From: Eubacterium sp.
Lineage (GTDB): Bacteria; Bacillota; Clostridia; Lachnospirales; Lachnospiraceae
Direction of reading: 5' to 3'
NCBI GenBank assembly: GCA_017433295.1
Contig: JAFRHL010000045.1
Span: forward strand, 1 to 32,835
Length of the DNA stretch: 32,835 nt
Shown: positions 20,406-27,201 of the stretch, piece by piece
Layout of the letters: every line of letters starts with the position of its first letter
Numbering within the stretch: position 1 is the stretch's first letter
The notes under the pieces: generated by a model
What the model was told of the DNA's origin: nothing
What the model saw: only the letters and a program-made list of their open reading frames with translations
Databases searched by the model: none
Made by a program: the position numbers and the translations under genes

Positions 20406-20818
20406 TTACCGGTCTGTTATTGTGATCCTTCCCTGACCATAGGGATTCTCATAGCCCTGTCCGACCTCTCCCCCCAAAGTATCTGTGATGTAATCGATGA
20501 GGGCCTGGCATCGTCCACCAGGAGAGTGGTATATCCCCGGGATTTCAGGGTGTCACGGATCTGAGCCAGGCCTGCATAGCCAAAGCCCTCGTCTACACCG
20601 CAGTGTACATCACTGGTAAAGAGGATCATAATGTCCTGATTGTCTTCTTTCCCTTCAGCGGCTGCAGCAGATGTTCCTTCGGCGGATGCGCCAATAGTAG
20701 TACCCTCTGCACCTGGAGAATCCCCTTTGCCGGACTTTGCCGTATTACAGGCTGCGGACGTGATGACCAGGATAAGCAGCATAAAATAACAATAAATTTT
20801 TTTCATTTTCTCATACAT
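20406..20818 (-). pseudogene. 5'-nucleotidase lipoprotein with large internal deletion
   Basis: The gene starts well: GGAGG precedes the ATG at 20818, and MKKIYCYFMLLILVITSAAC is a lipoprotein signal with a lipobox-like end. A low-complexity Ser/Gly/Ala linker follows, then the first metallophosphatase motif, ILFTSDVHCGVDEGFGYAGL, as in UshA-type 5'-nucleotidases. After TTLLVD (near 20522) the original frame becomes junk and ends at 20417. A +1 frame from about 20515 to 20406 reads CQALIDYITDTLGG and PYGQGRITIT, the usual C-terminal end of the same family. About 400 or more middle residues are therefore missing, and the two ends are joined out of frame. The product cannot be an active enzyme. 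Confidence 0.85.
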
Positions 20819-20852: not shown

Positions 20853-23042
20853 TTAGGTCAGTCTGCTGCCAGACAGTTCTTCTAAATATTCCCTCGCTCC
20901 GTCCATATCAAGCACATCACGGATGATCTCCTTCCCCTTCAGGTTCTCCGGCAGCAGCGGGAAATACTTTCCTCTCGTTCTGACAAATCGATTCACGTAT
21001 CCATAATCGATCAAATATTTCTCTCCCGCCAGTCTGCCGCATAGTGACCGCAGTTGTGCCTCATTCATTCCCCTGATGCGGATCCCGTAAAGGAAATCCC
21101 GGCAGAAAACCCTTTCACAGCTTACATCATGGGCTTTCAGAATATGATAGACCGTAAGGAGAGTCTTTCCTGAAAGTATGGGATGAAGCAGGAGACTTCC
21201 GTCCGCATCCCGGCTTATGACTTCATTCAGGCCCCAGCGGGCAGCCTTCGCCCGAAGATCGGCCAGAACCCCTTTGGCCTCCTCATCCAGATAGGCATAT
21301 TCTGTATCGGCGGAGAGGACCTCATGAATCTTTTCCATGAGCCTCCGGTCCGTGACCAGTTCTCCAAAGCCGCCAAAGCAGACCTCTGCCTCCTCTCCCG
21401 CTTCGATAACATCCAGCCGTTTTCTGCTCATATCCCGGTCAGTGACCTCCCAGCTTCGACCCGCCAGAAAGAAGCAGTCTCCGGGCCGGTAGGCTCTGTC
21501 AATGGTTCCGATCTCCAACCCGTCAGAAAAGACCGTCATGGGGATCTCCGCCACAAAGACCGCGTAAAAATCCATACTCCCGGCAATTCCTTCTCCCCGG
21601 TCATCCAGACCGATGGCACCGTCATCGTAAAGGCAGAGGACCTTTTTCTCTATCAGGTGAAGAAGCAGGTCCTTAAGGTCATCCTGGGAAATATCCCGGA
21701 AAACTGAAAGTTCAAGCAGATGAGAGGCCAGAGTCTTTGGCTGCAGGCAACCCCTTTCACACAGGACCGCGATGATCTCATGGACCAGGAGATGGTAAGG
21801 CAGGCCGGGAAGATCCTCATCCTCCAGATAGTGCTCTCTGAAATAAAGCTTAATCATGGCTATGGACCGGACCAGGGTCAGGTCCAGCTTTCTCCGGTCT
21901 CCTTTATCCTCCAGGTGGCGCAGCTGAAAAGAGATGGCAGCCTGACCGGTCCTTCTCCCGCTTCTGCCCAGGCGCTGTACCATACTGGATATACTTGGCG
22001 GATCACTGACCTGGATCACCTCATCCAGAGATCCTATGTCAATACCCAGCTCCAGGGTCAGGGTCGTACCGGTCAAAATGGGGCCCCGGTCCTGTTTCAT
22101 GATCCTCTCCGTATCCTCCCGGAGGTCCTTGGCTATGCTGCCGTGATGCACATAATATACGTCCGGCAGATTCCTCTCAAGAGCCATTTTTCTCACTTTG
22201 GAGACCAGCACCTCCGCCATCCTTCTGGAATTGGCAAAAAGCAGGGCTCTCTTCCCCCTGGACTGAAGGAATATCTTTTTGATGTACCTCTCCGGGAACT
22301 CCTCCTTTCCGATACGGGTGGTAGTGACAGAGCACATCACCCGGCGTCCCTCTTCATGCCAGGAGATCACCCGGCCCTTCCGTCCGCTTCCCTGACACAG
22401 CCAGGACAGAGCCTTTCCGGTATTGCCTATGGTGGCAGACAGTCCTATCCGCACAGGCTTACAGCCGGCCCTGCGGGACATACGCTCGAACAGGGTCAGC
22501 AGCTGAAGTCCCCTCTCACTGTTCATAAAGTAATGGATCTCATCGATGATAATGAATCTCAGCCCTGAAAAGAGAGGCACGATCCGTTCCGGGTGACAGC
22601 AGAGCATGGCTTCCAGGGACTCCGGGGTCATCTGGACAATGCCGCCGGGATCCTCCAGCAGTTTTTCCTTCCGGGAAAGAACAGCATCTCCATGCCATTT
22701 AGTAATGGAAATATCTGTATCCCTCAGCATTTCTTCGATCCTGATGAACTGATCATTGATCAGTGCCTTCAAGGGACTTATATAAAGGATGCCGACACCC
22801 TGGCTCCTGCCGCAGATGCCTGAAATTGCCGGCAGGAAGGCCGCCTCCGTCTTTCCCTGGGCGGTTCCTGCCATAAGCAGTACATTGTGCTTTTGGGGCA
22901 AAATGTACTCAACAGCCCTGATCTGCATGGGATTTAACCGGTCCCAGCCCATACGATATATATAATCCTGAATAAAATCAGCAAGAAGGCCATAGGCCTC
23001 CTGCTGGTCAAGATGGTTTTTCATTCTTTTATCATGCCTCAC
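20853..23042 (-). CDS. Lhr-like superfamily 2 DEAH-type helicase of the TerB-N/BrxD-like cassette
   Basis: This 729-residue ATP-dependent helicase resembles Lhr and the BrxH helicases of BREX type 2. Motif I is AGTAQGKT (58-65), motif Ia is ISPLKAL, motif II is DEIH (167-170), motif III is SAT (202-204) and motif VI is QRLGRSGRR (356-364). A Q-motif-like NPMQIRAVEY precedes motif I. The C-terminal half holds winged-helix and Lhr-type domains without a nuclease motif. The GTG start at 23042 directly follows the ATPase stop. An ATG six codons later, with AGGTGAGG upstream, is the alternative (723 aa). It is the third gene of a three-gene operon and would translocate along or unwind nucleic acid. 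Confidence 0.9.
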   Translation of the reverse strand: MRHDKRMKNHLDQQEAYGLLADFIQDYIYRMGWDRLNPMQIRAVEYILPQKHNVLLMAGTAQGKTEAAFLPAISGICGRSQGVGILYISPLKALINDQFIRIEEMLRDTDISITKWHGDAVLSRKEKLLEDPGGIVQMTPESLEAMLCCHPERIVPLFSGLRFIIIDEIHYFMNSERGLQLLTLFERMSRRAGCKPVRIGLSATIGNTGKALSWLCQGSGRKGRVISWHEEGRRVMCSVTTTRIGKEEFPERYIKKIFLQSRGKRALLFANSRRMAEVLVSKVRKMALERNLPDVYYVHHGSIAKDLREDTERIMKQDRGPILTGTTLTLELGIDIGSLDEVIQVSDPPSISSMVQRLGRSGRRTGQAAISFQLRHLEDKGDRRKLDLTLVRSIAMIKLYFREHYLEDEDLPGLPYHLLVHEIIAVLCERGCLQPKTLASHLLELSVFRDISQDDLKDLLLHLIEKKVLCLYDDGAIGLDDRGEGIAGSMDFYAVFVAEIPMTVFSDGLEIGTIDRAYRPGDCFFLAGRSWEVTDRDMSRKRLDVIEAGEEAEVCFGGFGELVTDRRLMEKIHEVLSADTEYAYLDEEAKGVLADLRAKAARWGLNEVISRDADGSLLLHPILSGKTLLTVYHILKAHDVSCERVFCRDFLYGIRIRGMNEAQLRSLCGRLAGEKYLIDYGYVNRFVRTRGKYFPLLPENLKGKEIIRDVLDMDGAREYLEELSGSRLT

Positions 23043-24377
23043 CTACAGGGTAAATGTTTCATACCTCATCTCGATCTCCTCATCCTCTTCCTCCTCTTTC
23101 CCGATCATGGAGGGGGTCATTTCAATACCTCCGCCCCGGTAAAGGAAGTCTTCCATGGAATCATCCGGTCGCTTGCCTGCTTTCAGGTTCAGGATGGTGA
23201 GGAAATCCCGTATGAACTCTCTGGGAGTCAGGTGGGAGGCCGCCCCGATCCTCTGGTATTCACAGTTTACAAACTTGATACGATCTTCTTCTGTGAAATA
23301 CCCCTCTTTATCATGAAGCATGGCATGCATATCCTCCACGCGTTCCACCAGTATGGCAAATTCTTCAGGGGTGAGCATGGAAAGCTTTATAATGGGGGCT
23401 CCCAGCAGTTCATCGCCCTGAAGCCTGGATACGGATAACCTGCTTTTTAATGCCTCGTAGGAGAATATTCCCCGCCTGGGATCGTGGATGGAAGAAGGGA
23501 TTCCGCATAAAATGATTCCCATATACCTGGCACCATTTCCGTAACAGTCATTGTACATGGAAAGAAGCCGCTCGAAATTATGTTCCCTGGTGGTGGAATT
23601 GACAATATTCCTGGTGATCTGGGTCAGCTCGTCCAAAATCATGTACATGCCGGTATAACCGGCCTCCTTAACAAAAACTGCCAGCAGCTTGATATAAGAA
23701 AACCAGTTGCTGTCCTCCACAATGGCGGGAAGTCCGGTGCTTTTCCTGGCTTCGGTCTTCGTATGATATTCTCCCCGGAACCAGCGCAAAAGCCGGTCTT
23801 TTTCCTCTTCTTTCCCGAAGGCCGCGCATTCCATGTACAGACGCAGGGCCTCATAGAAATCAAACCCGTGGGGCATGCCCTCTATTTTCTTTTTCATTCC
23901 GGCTGCCCCGGTCTCCATGAAGGAAAGGATCTCCTCCGGCGTCGAGATCCCCTGGTCCCCGGCTTCTTTACAGAGCCTTCCGGTAAAGGATTCCAGTATT
24001 TCAGGAAGGGCTCCGCCGGATGGACAAGTCCTGGTGGAAATCCGGCTCATCAGCATCCGGTAGGTTTCCAGACCTTCCTTTTTGGTGCCGCACAGCTTCC
24101 TCTCCGGGGCCAGCTCACAGTCCATAACCACAAAGCCCCGAAGGAGGGCCTCATTTTTTATCAGGCGGGCCATGAAGCTCTTCCCGGTACCATAGGCTCC
24201 CTCCAGCAGCCGGAAGGTAGAATGGCCTCCGGCAATCAGATCCATATCAGAGGTGATCACCTCCACTTCTTCCTTCCTGCCCACAGCAATATAGGGCAGG
24301 CCGTTTTCCGGCACCATACCACCCTCCAGTGCATGGAGGATACTTTTTGCAATTCCTTTACCGGCCTTTGTACTCAT
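23043..24377 (-). CDS. BrxD-like P-loop ATPase (DUF2791 family)
   Basis: The 444-residue protein is a P-loop NTPase of the DUF2791/BrxD type, the ATP-binding protein of BREX and related DNA-processing systems. The Walker A loop is GAYGTGKS (60-67) and the Walker B is MYMILDE (244-250). The N terminus (HALEGGMVPENGLPYIAVGR) and the following GGHSTFRLLEGAYG are typical of the family. The distal part includes ILCGIPSSIHDP and LTPREFIRDFLTIL. The end is strongly acidic (EEEEDEEIE). AAGGGG eight bases before the ATG supports the start. It lies 20 bases after the TerB-N gene and abuts the helicase. It probably powers or loads the helicase. Confidence 0.88.
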   Translation of the reverse strand: MSTKAGKGIAKSILHALEGGMVPENGLPYIAVGRKEEVEVITSDMDLIAGGHSTFRLLEGAYGTGKSFMARLIKNEALLRGFVVMDCELAPERKLCGTKKEGLETYRMLMSRISTRTCPSGGALPEILESFTGRLCKEAGDQGISTPEEILSFMETGAAGMKKKIEGMPHGFDFYEALRLYMECAAFGKEEEKDRLLRWFRGEYHTKTEARKSTGLPAIVEDSNWFSYIKLLAVFVKEAGYTGMYMILDELTQITRNIVNSTTREHNFERLLSMYNDCYGNGARYMGIILCGIPSSIHDPRRGIFSYEALKSRLSVSRLQGDELLGAPIIKLSMLTPEEFAILVERVEDMHAMLHDKEGYFTEEDRIKFVNCEYQRIGAASHLTPREFIRDFLTILNLKAGKRPDDSMEDFLYRGGGIEMTPSMIGKEEEEDEEIEMRYETFTL

Positions 24378-24397
24378 AGGATAACCCCTTTCGTGTA

Positions 24398-25780
24398 CTA
24401 ATTATAATCAATTTCATCATGATGCAGTAAATGCAGTACTGAATCAGCGTCAGATTTTGCCTTTTTAAATCTTTCATAATCAATTTTACCATCAGTGTCA
24501 GATCCTTCATGATCCATCTGATAAAGCAGCAGGTCATGATCCTTCTTACTCAGGGACTTTTTGTTTTCAAGGACAGGATGCATTTTCATGTATTCTGATA
24601 CCCCTTGTCCTATCGCCCTCTCAAACCTCTCATCCTTCAGGATCTCTTTCATGGCAAAAATCACAGATTTTTCATCCCCTGTACGAAGATATTTCTTTTT
24701 AAGAAAGCGGTCTGCCGTCCTCTTCCGCCTTGGTGCCCGGTAATACTCACGAACAAAGGATTCCGTATAAAGATGGATGACATACAGAAAGTCCCGGGCT
24801 CCCTCTTTCAGGGACCACTCTGTGCGGACCCACTGTTCCTTATGGGCACTGCCATAGGAAGGACGACTGTCCAGATAGCAGGTGTCTGCCAGGGCGATCC
24901 TTCGTTTTGCCCCCAGGACCCGTCTTCTCACCGGCAGAAGTTCCATCCTGGTGCCGGTCTCCTCACCGGCAGTCAGAAATTTCCGGAACAGGTGGCCTGT
25001 TTTGTCTCCGAAAGTGCTGTCAAGACTGGCAAAGACTTCAGGCATGGCCTTCCAGGTGGCGTCCACGTAGGCCTTATCTCCTGATATTTCCTCCTTTTTT
25101 AAAAGGCGGGCATACTTCTTAACAAATAATCCCGCCCTGGAAAAGCGTCCCTGCCGGATCTCGCCGATCAGGTCATATTTCCAGTAGAGGTCTCTTTCCA
25201 CCAGTCCTTTCCTGATCTCCTCAGCCATATCATAATGGGCAGTCAGGAAGGACAGACAAAGACGCCTCAGATACTCCTCATCCGATTCATTTACGCAGGA
25301 AGGATCAGAAGGAGAGCCGGTAAGTGCGGCACTCTGCCTGAATCCGGTGGTTCCGGGACCGTCTGACCCGGACTGATTCATTCTGTCCCAAAATGCAAAG
25401 ATTTCCCCAAGGGCATCTTTTGCCGAAGAGTGATGGAGCTCATTTGCCAGCTCCAGAAGGTATAATCCGGCATAATATTTTTCACCCTGCCGGATCACTC
25501 CCGCGGCAAAGCAGGGTCTTCGGGAACAATAATACAGCAGCTGTTCTTCTGTAAGTTCTTCCGGATAATGAACTTCCCTTTCCAGAGGAATCAGTTCAGG
25601 TTCTGAAAGAGTCAGTCCGGAAAGCTTCAGATCCAGCATACGAATCTGGTCAACGAATCTCTTACCTTCATCCGTATCAAAGTTAAAGCCGAAGCCCCCT
25701 CTTCTCCTGCTGTTTTCCGCTCTTATGTATCTTTTAAATTCATCCAGAATGATCTCCGGTGTTTTATTCTGTCCGGCCAT
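24398..25780 (-). CDS. TerB-N-domain-like protein, first gene of the ATPase/helicase cassette
   Basis: The 460-residue protein has a TerB-N-like N-terminal region: LTEEQLLYYCSRRPCFAAGV (about 77-95) followed by KYYAGLYLLELANEL (101-115). This recalls the family pattern of an aromatic-rich stretch followed by a Tyr/Leu-rich helix. The middle and C terminus are helical and basic (APRRKRTADRFLKKKYL near 370-388). No catalytic motif was seen, so it may bind DNA or act as sensor or scaffold. The start is ATG at 25780 with AGGGG upstream. A TTG 13 codons earlier lies at or before the transcription start and has no site. It is the promoter-proximal gene, ahead of the DUF2791 ATPase and Lhr-like helicase. 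The domain call is by pattern and moderately sure. Confidence 0.7.
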   Translation of the reverse strand: MAGQNKTPEIILDEFKRYIRAENSRRRGGFGFNFDTDEGKRFVDQIRMLDLKLSGLTLSEPELIPLEREVHYPEELTEEQLLYYCSRRPCFAAGVIRQGEKYYAGLYLLELANELHHSSAKDALGEIFAFWDRMNQSGSDGPGTTGFRQSAALTGSPSDPSCVNESDEEYLRRLCLSFLTAHYDMAEEIRKGLVERDLYWKYDLIGEIRQGRFSRAGLFVKKYARLLKKEEISGDKAYVDATWKAMPEVFASLDSTFGDKTGHLFRKFLTAGEETGTRMELLPVRRRVLGAKRRIALADTCYLDSRPSYGSAHKEQWVRTEWSLKEGARDFLYVIHLYTESFVREYYRAPRRKRTADRFLKKKYLRTGDEKSVIFAMKEILKDERFERAIGQGVSEYMKMHPVLENKKSLSKKDHDLLLYQMDHEGSDTDGKIDYERFKKAKSDADSVLHLLHHDEIDYN

Positions 25781-25905: not shown

Positions 25906-27096
25906 TTATTTATCTGCTTCAGTACTTGCGCTTTCCGCTGCGGCATCTGTTTTTTCTGCTTCGGTTGCTGCTTCTACAGTATTGATCTTTGAGGAACTGA
26001 AAAGGTTATCCAGCAGCTTATTCACAACCAGACTGGAACGGATATCATCCTCAGAATAGTAATCTTTGAGGGCTTCCACATTTTCAAGTCCGCTTTCCTC
26101 TGCAACCTTCTTCATCTCTTCCTGTAATTCTTCATCAGTTACAGTAATATTCTCTTTTTCCACCAGAAGGTCCTGAACACACTGTTGTTTTAAGGAGAAT
26201 TTTGCGTAATCCTCCAGGCTCATGCCGCTGGTCTCTTTAATATAATCTTCAACATCCATGCCAAAATAGTATTCTGCAACTTCCTGGTTCTCAATTTTGA
26301 TATTCTCAACCTCCTGCTTGATCATATTTTCAGAGAAGTCTTTTTTCTGTGTGCAATTATCAACGATCGCTTTCCACAGCTTATCTTTTGCCATGTCGTC
26401 AAATTCAGCCTGGGCCTGCTCTTCAAGGGTGGCACGCACATCTTTCCTGTACTGTTCTACACTCTGGGACTCGGTATTCTCCTTTACAAACGCATCATTC
26501 AGTTCCGGAATCACTTCTTCCTTGATCTCATTAATGGTTACTTCCATTTTGCATTTCTTTCCGGCAACTGTTTCATCATCATAATCTTTGGGGAAAGTAA
26601 ACTCTGTGGTCACGGTGGTGCCTGTTTTGGAACCGATTACCTTTTCCTCGATCTTAAAATCATCCCCCAGGCCTGAGCCGAGATACTCATCCATCTCACC
26701 GTCTCCGGCTTTTACGTCAATATCTGTATCGCTGTAATCATCACTTACTTTTCCGCCGATGGTGCAGGTGTAATCAACATTTACATAATCCCCTTTTTCA
26801 ACGGTGTCCCTGCCCTCAACCTTATTATAGCTGACATATCCTTCCAGATAGTTGTTGATTTCTTCTTCTACCTGGGACTCTGTTACTTCCGGCTTCTCCA
26901 CATCAACGGTAAGGCCTTTGTACTCACCCAGTTCAACATACTCGGAAGCGGTCAGCTCCACAGGAGTGATCTTAGCGTCCTGATTCATACTGCTTTCTGT
27001 CGTTGCCTCTGCAGCTTTTTTATCTTTTGTGCTGCCGCAGGCAGCAAGAATGAAAACTGTTGCTGCAAATAATGTAATCGTTATAAATTTCTTCAT
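25906..27096 (-). CDS. Trigger-factor-like FKBP peptidyl-prolyl isomerase lipoprotein
   Basis: This is an extracytoplasmic folding factor anchored by a lipid. The signal MKKFITITLFAATVFILAAC ends in a lipobox with C20. About 25 acidic, Thr/Ser-rich residues form a linker. An N-terminal region (45-85, LGEYKGLTVDVEKPEVTESQ) resembles the trigger factor lead-in. The FKBP-type PPIase domain spans about 85-180 (GDYVNVDYTCTIGG...VAGKKCKMEVTINEI). A helical trigger-factor C-terminal chaperone domain follows (190-360), then a low-complexity Ala/Glu/Thr tail. It lacks the ribosome-binding domain of cytosolic trigger factor. The ATG at 27096 has GAGG nearby; an upstream in-frame ATG is less likely. It is probably monocistronic. 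Confidence 0.9.
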   Translation of the reverse strand: MKKFITITLFAATVFILAACGSTKDKKAAEATTESSMNQDAKITPVELTASEYVELGEYKGLTVDVEKPEVTESQVEEEINNYLEGYVSYNKVEGRDTVEKGDYVNVDYTCTIGGKVSDDYSDTDIDVKAGDGEMDEYLGSGLGDDFKIEEKVIGSKTGTTVTTEFTFPKDYDDETVAGKKCKMEVTINEIKEEVIPELNDAFVKENTESQSVEQYRKDVRATLEEQAQAEFDDMAKDKLWKAIVDNCTQKKDFSENMIKQEVENIKIENQEVAEYYFGMDVEDYIKETSGMSLEDYAKFSLKQQCVQDLLVEKENITVTDEELQEEMKKVAEESGLENVEALKDYYSEDDIRSSLVVNKLLDNLFSSSKINTVEAATEAEKTDAAAESASTEADK

Positions 27097-27201
27097 AATC
27101 AAATACCTCATATCTTTCTTTCAGGATATTATTTTACTGATATGCTCTAATCTATCATTTTCAAACTGATAAAACAATCATTTTCACAAAAAATACAAAC
27201 T

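Follow-up and report, generated by a model that had tools for sequence, protein, structure and literature searches.

A divergent Shango-type operon with a far-diverged, lobe-less SngA homolog in Eubacterium

The window analyzed here is a 32,835-nucleotide stretch of Eubacterium sp. DNA (GenBank assembly GCA_017433295.1, contig JAFRHL010000045.1, positions 1 to 32,835), which carries a three-gene operon on its minus strand. We consider this operon most likely to be a divergent Shango-type system that very probably serves in defense. According to excerpts of the work describing it (PMC10250203), Shango is a three-gene anti-phage system consisting of a TerB-like protein, an ATPase and a DEAD/DEAH helicase (here SngA, SngB and SngC), tested in Pseudomonas aeruginosa; the Shango of P. 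aeruginosa PA14 lowers the plating of several phages, mostly modestly. Since a strict definition of Shango requires a match to the hidden Markov model (HMM) of SngA, and this match fails in the window, we class the operon as a variant, outside the standard members. What the data show is homology, intactness and distribution; that the window copy acts in defense is inferred. The phage-defense role put forward, next to a DNA-damage role, in the original prediction, which had been made from the window sequence without database searches, is judged right as a probable one.

Results

The ATPase and the helicase match the Shango families

The 444-amino acid (aa) product of the second gene matched Pfam PF10923 (BrxC_BrxD, formerly DUF2791) with an E value of 1.6e-116, as the original prediction had anticipated. 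Among the PADLOC models, SngB (PDLC03959; 403 bits, 4e-121) outscored BrxD (152 bits, 4.7e-45) by about 250 bits for the ATPase, and SngC (PDLC03960; 598 bits, 7.6e-180) outscored the best BrxHI model (400 bits, 3.4e-120) by about 200 bits for the helicase. The NCBI BrxD equivalog model, whose cut-off is 350, scored the ATPase far lower, at 154 bits. Both proteins retain their motifs, again as predicted: GAYGTGKS (Walker A) and ILDE (Walker B) in the ATPase, and AGTAQGKT, DEIH, SAT and QRLGRSGR in the helicase. In addition, none of the columns in which at least 95% of 28 sequences (the window included) share one residue, 86 in the ATPase and 116 in the helicase, is changed in the window. The original prediction was right to combine a BrxD-like ATPase with an Lhr-like (by the models, Lhr/BrxHI-like) helicase in a single operon and, judged by their sequences, the two proteins are the ATPase and helicase of Shango.

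The original prediction had regarded the operon as a minimal stand-alone set of BREX parts. A remnant or minimal form of BREX type 2, composed of BrxD and the BrxHI helicase, would explain why both BREX models match, and in BREX type 2 the genes for BrxD and BrxHI do stay linked, according to excerpts of a recent survey (PMC12839542). The lead of the SngB and SngC models, the shortfall against the BrxD cut-off and the SngA-related first gene (see below) fit the known Shango arrangement instead, making a BREX origin of this kind very unlikely. No other BREX protein, PglX, PglZ, BrxC and PglW included, was found by Pfam among 20 window proteins; the genome-wide search, which covered PF10923 only, located this family outside the operon at one place, in two neighboring open reading frames (ORFs) on another contig.

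The first protein is a far-diverged SngA

Neither Pfam, including TerB_N (PF13208), nor NCBIfam contained a model matching the 460-aa first protein at E values up to 0.01, and the PADLOC SngA model did not match it at E values up to 1. Its sole PADLOC match was a stray one to a type IIG enzyme (15 bits, E 0.0011). We then compared profiles. With the additional end of one relative (G005) removed, the window-type profile matched a profile of 23 classic SngA proteins with a probability of 97.7 and an E value of 2.2e-12 over profile columns 97-442 of 573, and its two halves matched classic SngA co-linearly (N half, 1.3e-8; C half, 2.5e-5). The 11 controls gave E values of 0.088-0.94 (eight column shuffles), 0.55 (reversed profile), 0.051 (SngB profile) and 0.24 (SngC profile).

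Window-type SngA has five relatives, all from the same genus, in the 61 genomes searched (6/61 with the window's own), and none in plasmid records; it is seen in one genus only, and patchily. In six SngA sequences, 66 residues are invariant. The median identity of the window type to the classic SngA proteins of the order is 14.5% (115 pairs). The folds predicted for the window protein and for the classic SngA of G057 (predicted local distance difference test scores of 78 and 81, respectively) present a helical domain, four strands, a long helix and further helices in a common order. Beyond these elements, the predicted classic structure adds a helical lobe with a two-strand hairpin, whereas the window protein ends. 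Thus, on this evidence from profiles and predicted folds, the 460-aa protein is a far-diverged SngA with a TerB_N-like core. The label "TerB-N-like" in the original prediction holds by profile-profile comparison and fails by the direct TerB_N search that had been proposed for it. Separately, Foldseek detected a similarity to the YjbR/DUF419 fold (3h9x_A, E 2.2e-5) in part of the G057 protein (L041:8457-10418), probably an additional N-terminal domain of that SngA.

The distal TerB_C lobe is absent from most window-type proteins

Both TerB_N and TerB_C are matched by Pfam in 15/15 classic SngA proteins scanned, of which the order contributed six and plasmids nine. A central TerB match is additionally present in six of the plasmid proteins (Proteobacteria, haloarchaea), four of which exceed the Pfam cut-off, and in none of those from the order; in the proteobacterial plasmid proteins L152, L154, L155 and L147, TerB lies over the cut-off between TerB_N and TerB_C. 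Because the central TerB is found in plasmid SngA and not in the six of the order, SngA may have shrunk stepwise.

Neither Pfam TerB_C nor either of two lobe models matched the window protein, and Pfam TerB_C together with one lobe model found no lobe in the window's genome, while G005, G022 and G057 were matched. The lobe is also absent from the copies in G003, G010 and G016, and the G011 copy is truncated by the end of its contig. By contrast, the G005 protein (606 aa, 61% identical) ends in a TerB_C match of 28.8 bits, above the Pfam cut-off of 26.3. In G005 (contig 103; L033, L034), sngA and sngB are separated by about 14 kb of mostly metabolic genes, including permeases, a pyruvate-ferredoxin oxidoreductase, a PucR regulator and an aminotransferase. 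Among the 61 relatives, Pfam TerB_C matched seven, and not the window's genome, G003, G010 or G016.

The first lobe HMM, trained on 36 ends including those of G005, G022, L043 and L045, recognized the G005 SngA (a training member) and, independently of training, two other proteins: the SngA of a Paenibacillus plasmid and, at its end, a 1545-aa SMC-like protein of G396. All six frames of the window, and of the loci in G003, G010 and G016, were negative with this HMM, its sensitivity being incomplete, as it missed three of the nine plasmid SngA proteins that Pfam TerB_C matches. In 12 whole genomes (E up to 0.1), the second lobe model matched G005 and G057, which are not independent of its training, and G022, which is; it gave marginal matches in G017 (E 0.015) and G004 (E 0.094) and none in G000, G003, G010, G016 or G011. 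Within the sensitivity of these models, the absence of matches in the genome and in six-frame translations of the loci speaks against a lobe encoded elsewhere, as a separate gene or as a fusion to SngB or SngC.

Could the missing lobe mean that the system is decaying, with a SngA that has lost its TerB_C part and an operon on its way out? Many related genomes lack the system, and an ORF just downstream of sngC looks like the remnant of a larger gene (see below), which would show that deletions occur here. Against this stand the complete retention of the conserved SngB and SngC columns and the invariant SngA residues. Moreover, the lobe-less form is common to four genomes with SngA identities of 31-64%, which is too old for plain decay. 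We therefore consider a decaying, non-functional Shango quite unlikely and favor an intact variant. On the SngB tree, the window forms a pair with the lobe-bearing G005, so that the lobe would have been either lost about three times or regained in G005.

In two further loci, one in G051 and one on contig 59 of G053, the first protein (199 and 165 aa, respectively) consists of hardly anything but the lobe. The match of the 199-aa protein to the SngA model (1.8e-7) lies at the end of that model, and the 165-aa protein is linked to SngA by a 36-bit match to our own SngA model only. Since lobe-less, lobe-bearing and nearly lobe-only first proteins occur, the slot before sngB is modular. The lobe-less SngA of the window also implies either that SngA can be coupled to SngB without strictly needing the lobe, or that a different contact serves in the window type.

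SngB ends in a conserved tail

Most of the 49 SngB sequences compared end in an acidic stretch followed by aromatic-x-x-F-x-[LIV]. An acidic tail ending in F-x-[LIV]-COOH was present in 37 of 39 SngB proteins from genomes with SngC versus none of seven from genomes without a SngC match. This count omits three of the 49: L046 (a 110-aa fragment), L141 (a duplicate locus) and L043, where the contig stops short of any helicase. Of the 11 genomes that have no SngC match, seven supplied the seven proteins, two of which are identical; the two of the 39 that lack the tail, L044 and L144, are sisters on the SngB tree. In nine plasmid SngB proteins (from Paenibacillus, alpha- and gammaproteobacteria and haloarchaea), the C-terminus is exactly F-x-L in eight and FRLGT in the remaining one, from Bradyrhizobium. 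The Shango tail is lacking, on the other hand, in two BrxD-like proteins found elsewhere in the phylum, one above and one below the NCBI BrxD cut-off, which speaks further against a BREX remnant.

In the parts of the 2026 BREX survey on which we draw (PMC12839542), BrxD is proposed to load or activate BrxHI, and no additional regulatory domain is described on BrxD. By this analogy, the tail suggests that SngB may dock on its helicase and load it. We found no mention of such a SngB tail in the literature on Shango, as far as the texts were accessible.

Operon layout and genomic neighborhood

The three genes are co-directional, intact and packed in the order A-B-C; the coordinates and close packing given in the original prediction all hold, on the minus strand (Table 1). 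A gap of 20 nt separates sngA from sngB, and the GTG of sngC abuts the sngB stop codon. For sngA, an in-frame TTG upstream of the ATG would give 473 aa. For sngC, an in-frame ATG at 23024 would give 723 aa and, since the G005 helicase begins at the matching point, may be the true start; the gap to sngB would then be 18 nt. No nuclease is encoded in the operon, whose GC content is 0.511 versus 0.483 for the window.

Table 1 Features of the operon and its flanks in the window
Feature	Position	Strand	Remarks
sngA-like gene, 460 aa	24398-25780	minus	ATG start; TerB_N-like helical core, four-strand beta module with long helix, first TerB_C helix (predicted)
sngB, 444-aa AAA+ ATPase	23043-24377	minus	PF10923; PADLOC SngB; Walker A/B intact; acidic tail ending RYETFTL-COOH
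sngC, 729-aa superfamily 2 (SF2) helicase	20853-23042	minus	PADLOC SngC; Lhr/BrxHI-like; motifs intact; GTG start
Promoter-like site, TTTACA-17-TATAAT	25852-25824	minus	upstream of sngA
Terminator-like hairpin, 14 pairs + T-run	25888-25858	minus	lies between the upstream trigger-factor-like gene and the operon
Trigger-factor-like gene	25906-27111		lipoprotein-type start; paralogs in the genus
133-aa ORF	20417-20818	minus	lipoprotein-like; just downstream of sngC; no Pfam match

The site named as a promoter in the original prediction is present as a promoter-like sequence just after the hairpin, and with 11/12 consensus matches is the best of 13 such sites in the 8.3 kb scanned; the overall number of these sites is near chance (13 found versus 9.4 +/- 2.6 expected), as is that of terminator-like sites (12 versus 9.1 +/- 3.2).

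The 133-aa ORF downstream resembles the start of what we take to be a 5'-nucleotidase/metallophosphatase. Directly after it, another frame encodes a stretch similar to the end of such a protein; the ORF appears to be what is left of a gene after a large internal deletion. On the other side of the operon, the trigger-factor-like gene is adjoined by topB or a C39-peptidase gene in several relatives. Elsewhere in the same genome, contig 53 (L047) carries a Wadjet-like locus (JetC match with an E value reported as 0), near which are two overlapping ORFs with BrxC/D-like ATPase matches, an SF2 helicase with an XPB-like match at its C-terminus and a DUF3427 helicase that has a PLD domain.

The cassette is patchily distributed

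SngB was found in only 6/24 genomes of the window's genus, all 24 of which have a relative of the trigger-factor-like gene. No cassette follows this gene in any of 18 stretches (from 23 relatives), some of which end soon after it (in G011, after about 170 bases). A patchy cassette beside a gene present genus-wide fits a module that was gained or is often lost.

Across the 392 genomes of the order, SngB was detected in 61 (E up to 1e-30), SngC in 54 (1e-60) and SngA, with the classic HMM, in 54 (1e-5). The SngC count includes G058, G150 and G253, where the match is weak, in a frame of at least about 1400 residues, and probably represents another helicase. Within 500 bp of SngB and on the same strand, SngC lies in 34 of the 61 SngB genomes, SngA in 33 and both in 27; the window's genome stands outside the 27, as the SngA HMM misses its SngA. 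In the other SngB genomes, the partners are separated, on other contigs or unmatched, with no SngC match in 11. Co-occurrence of the three genes, on which the original prediction had staked its reading, is therefore borne out in part, with all three side by side in 27/61 SngB genomes. SngB relatives also occur in 691 plasmid records, mostly of Klebsiella (449) and Salmonella (144).

This distribution bears on whether the operon might be a DNA repair or housekeeping set, active in replication-fork or stress processing and not in phage defense. Such a role would suit an operon lying among core-like genes (the trigger-factor-like lipoprotein, topB, rluA), the presence of SngB in 24/38 genomes of one family of the order, and five SngB genomes (G145, G161, G201, G215, G228; draft assemblies) in which the three genes are on three different contigs, unlike a compact defense cassette. 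It is at odds with the rarity of SngB in the window's genus, the stretches lacking the cassette beside the trigger-factor-like gene, the plasmid records and the published anti-phage activity of classic Shango (PMC10250203, in the excerpts cited above). We hold a repair or housekeeping role unlikely and prefer defense.

In a phylogeny of 46 SngB-family proteins, a long branch leads to a single clade (100/100) that unites the five window-type ATPases. This clade joined the ATPases associated with SMC-like proteins, a placement that is possibly a long-branch artifact and was not used. Median pairwise identities of SngA, SngB and SngC are 37, 70 and 58% in the window type (10 pairs) and 23, 57 and 43% in the classic type (253 pairs), in 28 loci with all three genes (L046, L144, L141, L138 and L137 set aside). 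By these identities, SngA is the fastest-evolving subunit, as expected of an arms-race sensor.

Discussion

Our preferred reading, a divergent and defensive Shango-type system, has several observations against it. The HMMs for SngA, TerB_N and TerB_C all miss the window protein directly, and the region matched by TerB_C in every classic SngA scanned is gone, so that the window copy could be altered or weakened. No other defense gene was recognized among the 20 window proteins scanned, and the neighbors look core. Two SngB proteins that adjoin SngC (G054, G289) lack the tail, and the loader idea draws on tail conservation and analogy. Finally, we found no phage test of this subtype in the literature, as far as it was accessible.

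How might the system work? SngA would sense the invader or replication intermediates and trigger loading. SngB, an AAA+ ATPase of the BrxC/D kind, would dock on SngC through its acidic F-x-hydrophobic C-terminal tail and serve as loader or activator. SngC, which is Ski2/Lhr-like, would then translocate on or unwind phage DNA, blocking replication without a nuclease of its own. In the present subtype, SngA would reach SngB without the TerB_C lobe. The docking through the tail, the sensor role of SngA and the way in which phage is inhibited are thus proposals, and we regard this scheme, taken by itself, as a reasonable possibility that falls somewhat short of probable. More tentative still is a broader picture, in which Shango would be a SngB loader and a SngC helicase coupled by a docking tail that Clostridia, Proteobacteria and haloarchaea have in common, and in which the sensor slot would be exchangeable. 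This slot would run from TerB_N-TerB-TerB_C (Proteobacteria, archaea) through TerB_N-TerB_C (Clostridia) and short lobe-only proteins to an SMC-like protein with the lobe (in a BrxL relative), and the window would represent the far end, a sensor without the linking lobe.

The literature that we found, part of it as excerpts, gives no mechanism for Shango, and the lobe-less subtype shows which part of SngA may be dispensable. The near-universal SngB tail offers a single cheap mutation with which docking of the ATPase on the helicase, or its loading, could be probed. Surveys that require a SngA HMM match can miss loci such as this one. We found no paper on DUF2791 with TerB and, in the accessible texts, no description of this operon type beyond the papers cited.

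Among the systems compared are loci in G396 (L125:4060-12230) and G401 (L126), in which a SngB-family ATPase lies between BrxL and a 1545-aa SMC/LmuB-like protein with a C-terminal SngA-type TerB_C lobe; only the G396 proteins were scanned, G401 being assigned by gene layout. They share with Shango a SngB-family ATPase beside a protein ending in a TerB_C-type lobe and differ in having an SMC-like part in place of TerB_N, BrxL in place of SngC and an ATPase without the FxL tail. They possibly represent another composite defense system. BREX type 2 has a homologous ATPase and helicase pair but lower model scores and a different first gene. A published phylogeny, known to us in excerpts (PMC12278908), places SngC with BrxHI, DruE and DpdJ in a potentially distinct defense clade of SF2 helicases.

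From classic Shango, the window operon differs in its SngA, which is remote in sequence, missed by the HMMs and devoid of the distal lobe; TerB_C, which all the classic SngA proteins scanned carry, is not part of the published definition in the excerpts cited. With classic Shango, it shares three adjacent co-directional genes in the same order, a SngB-family AAA+ ATPase, a SngC-family SF2 helicase, a TerB_N-related first protein, the lack of a nuclease and the SngB tail, the last by comparison with classic loci other than the PA14 proteins themselves.

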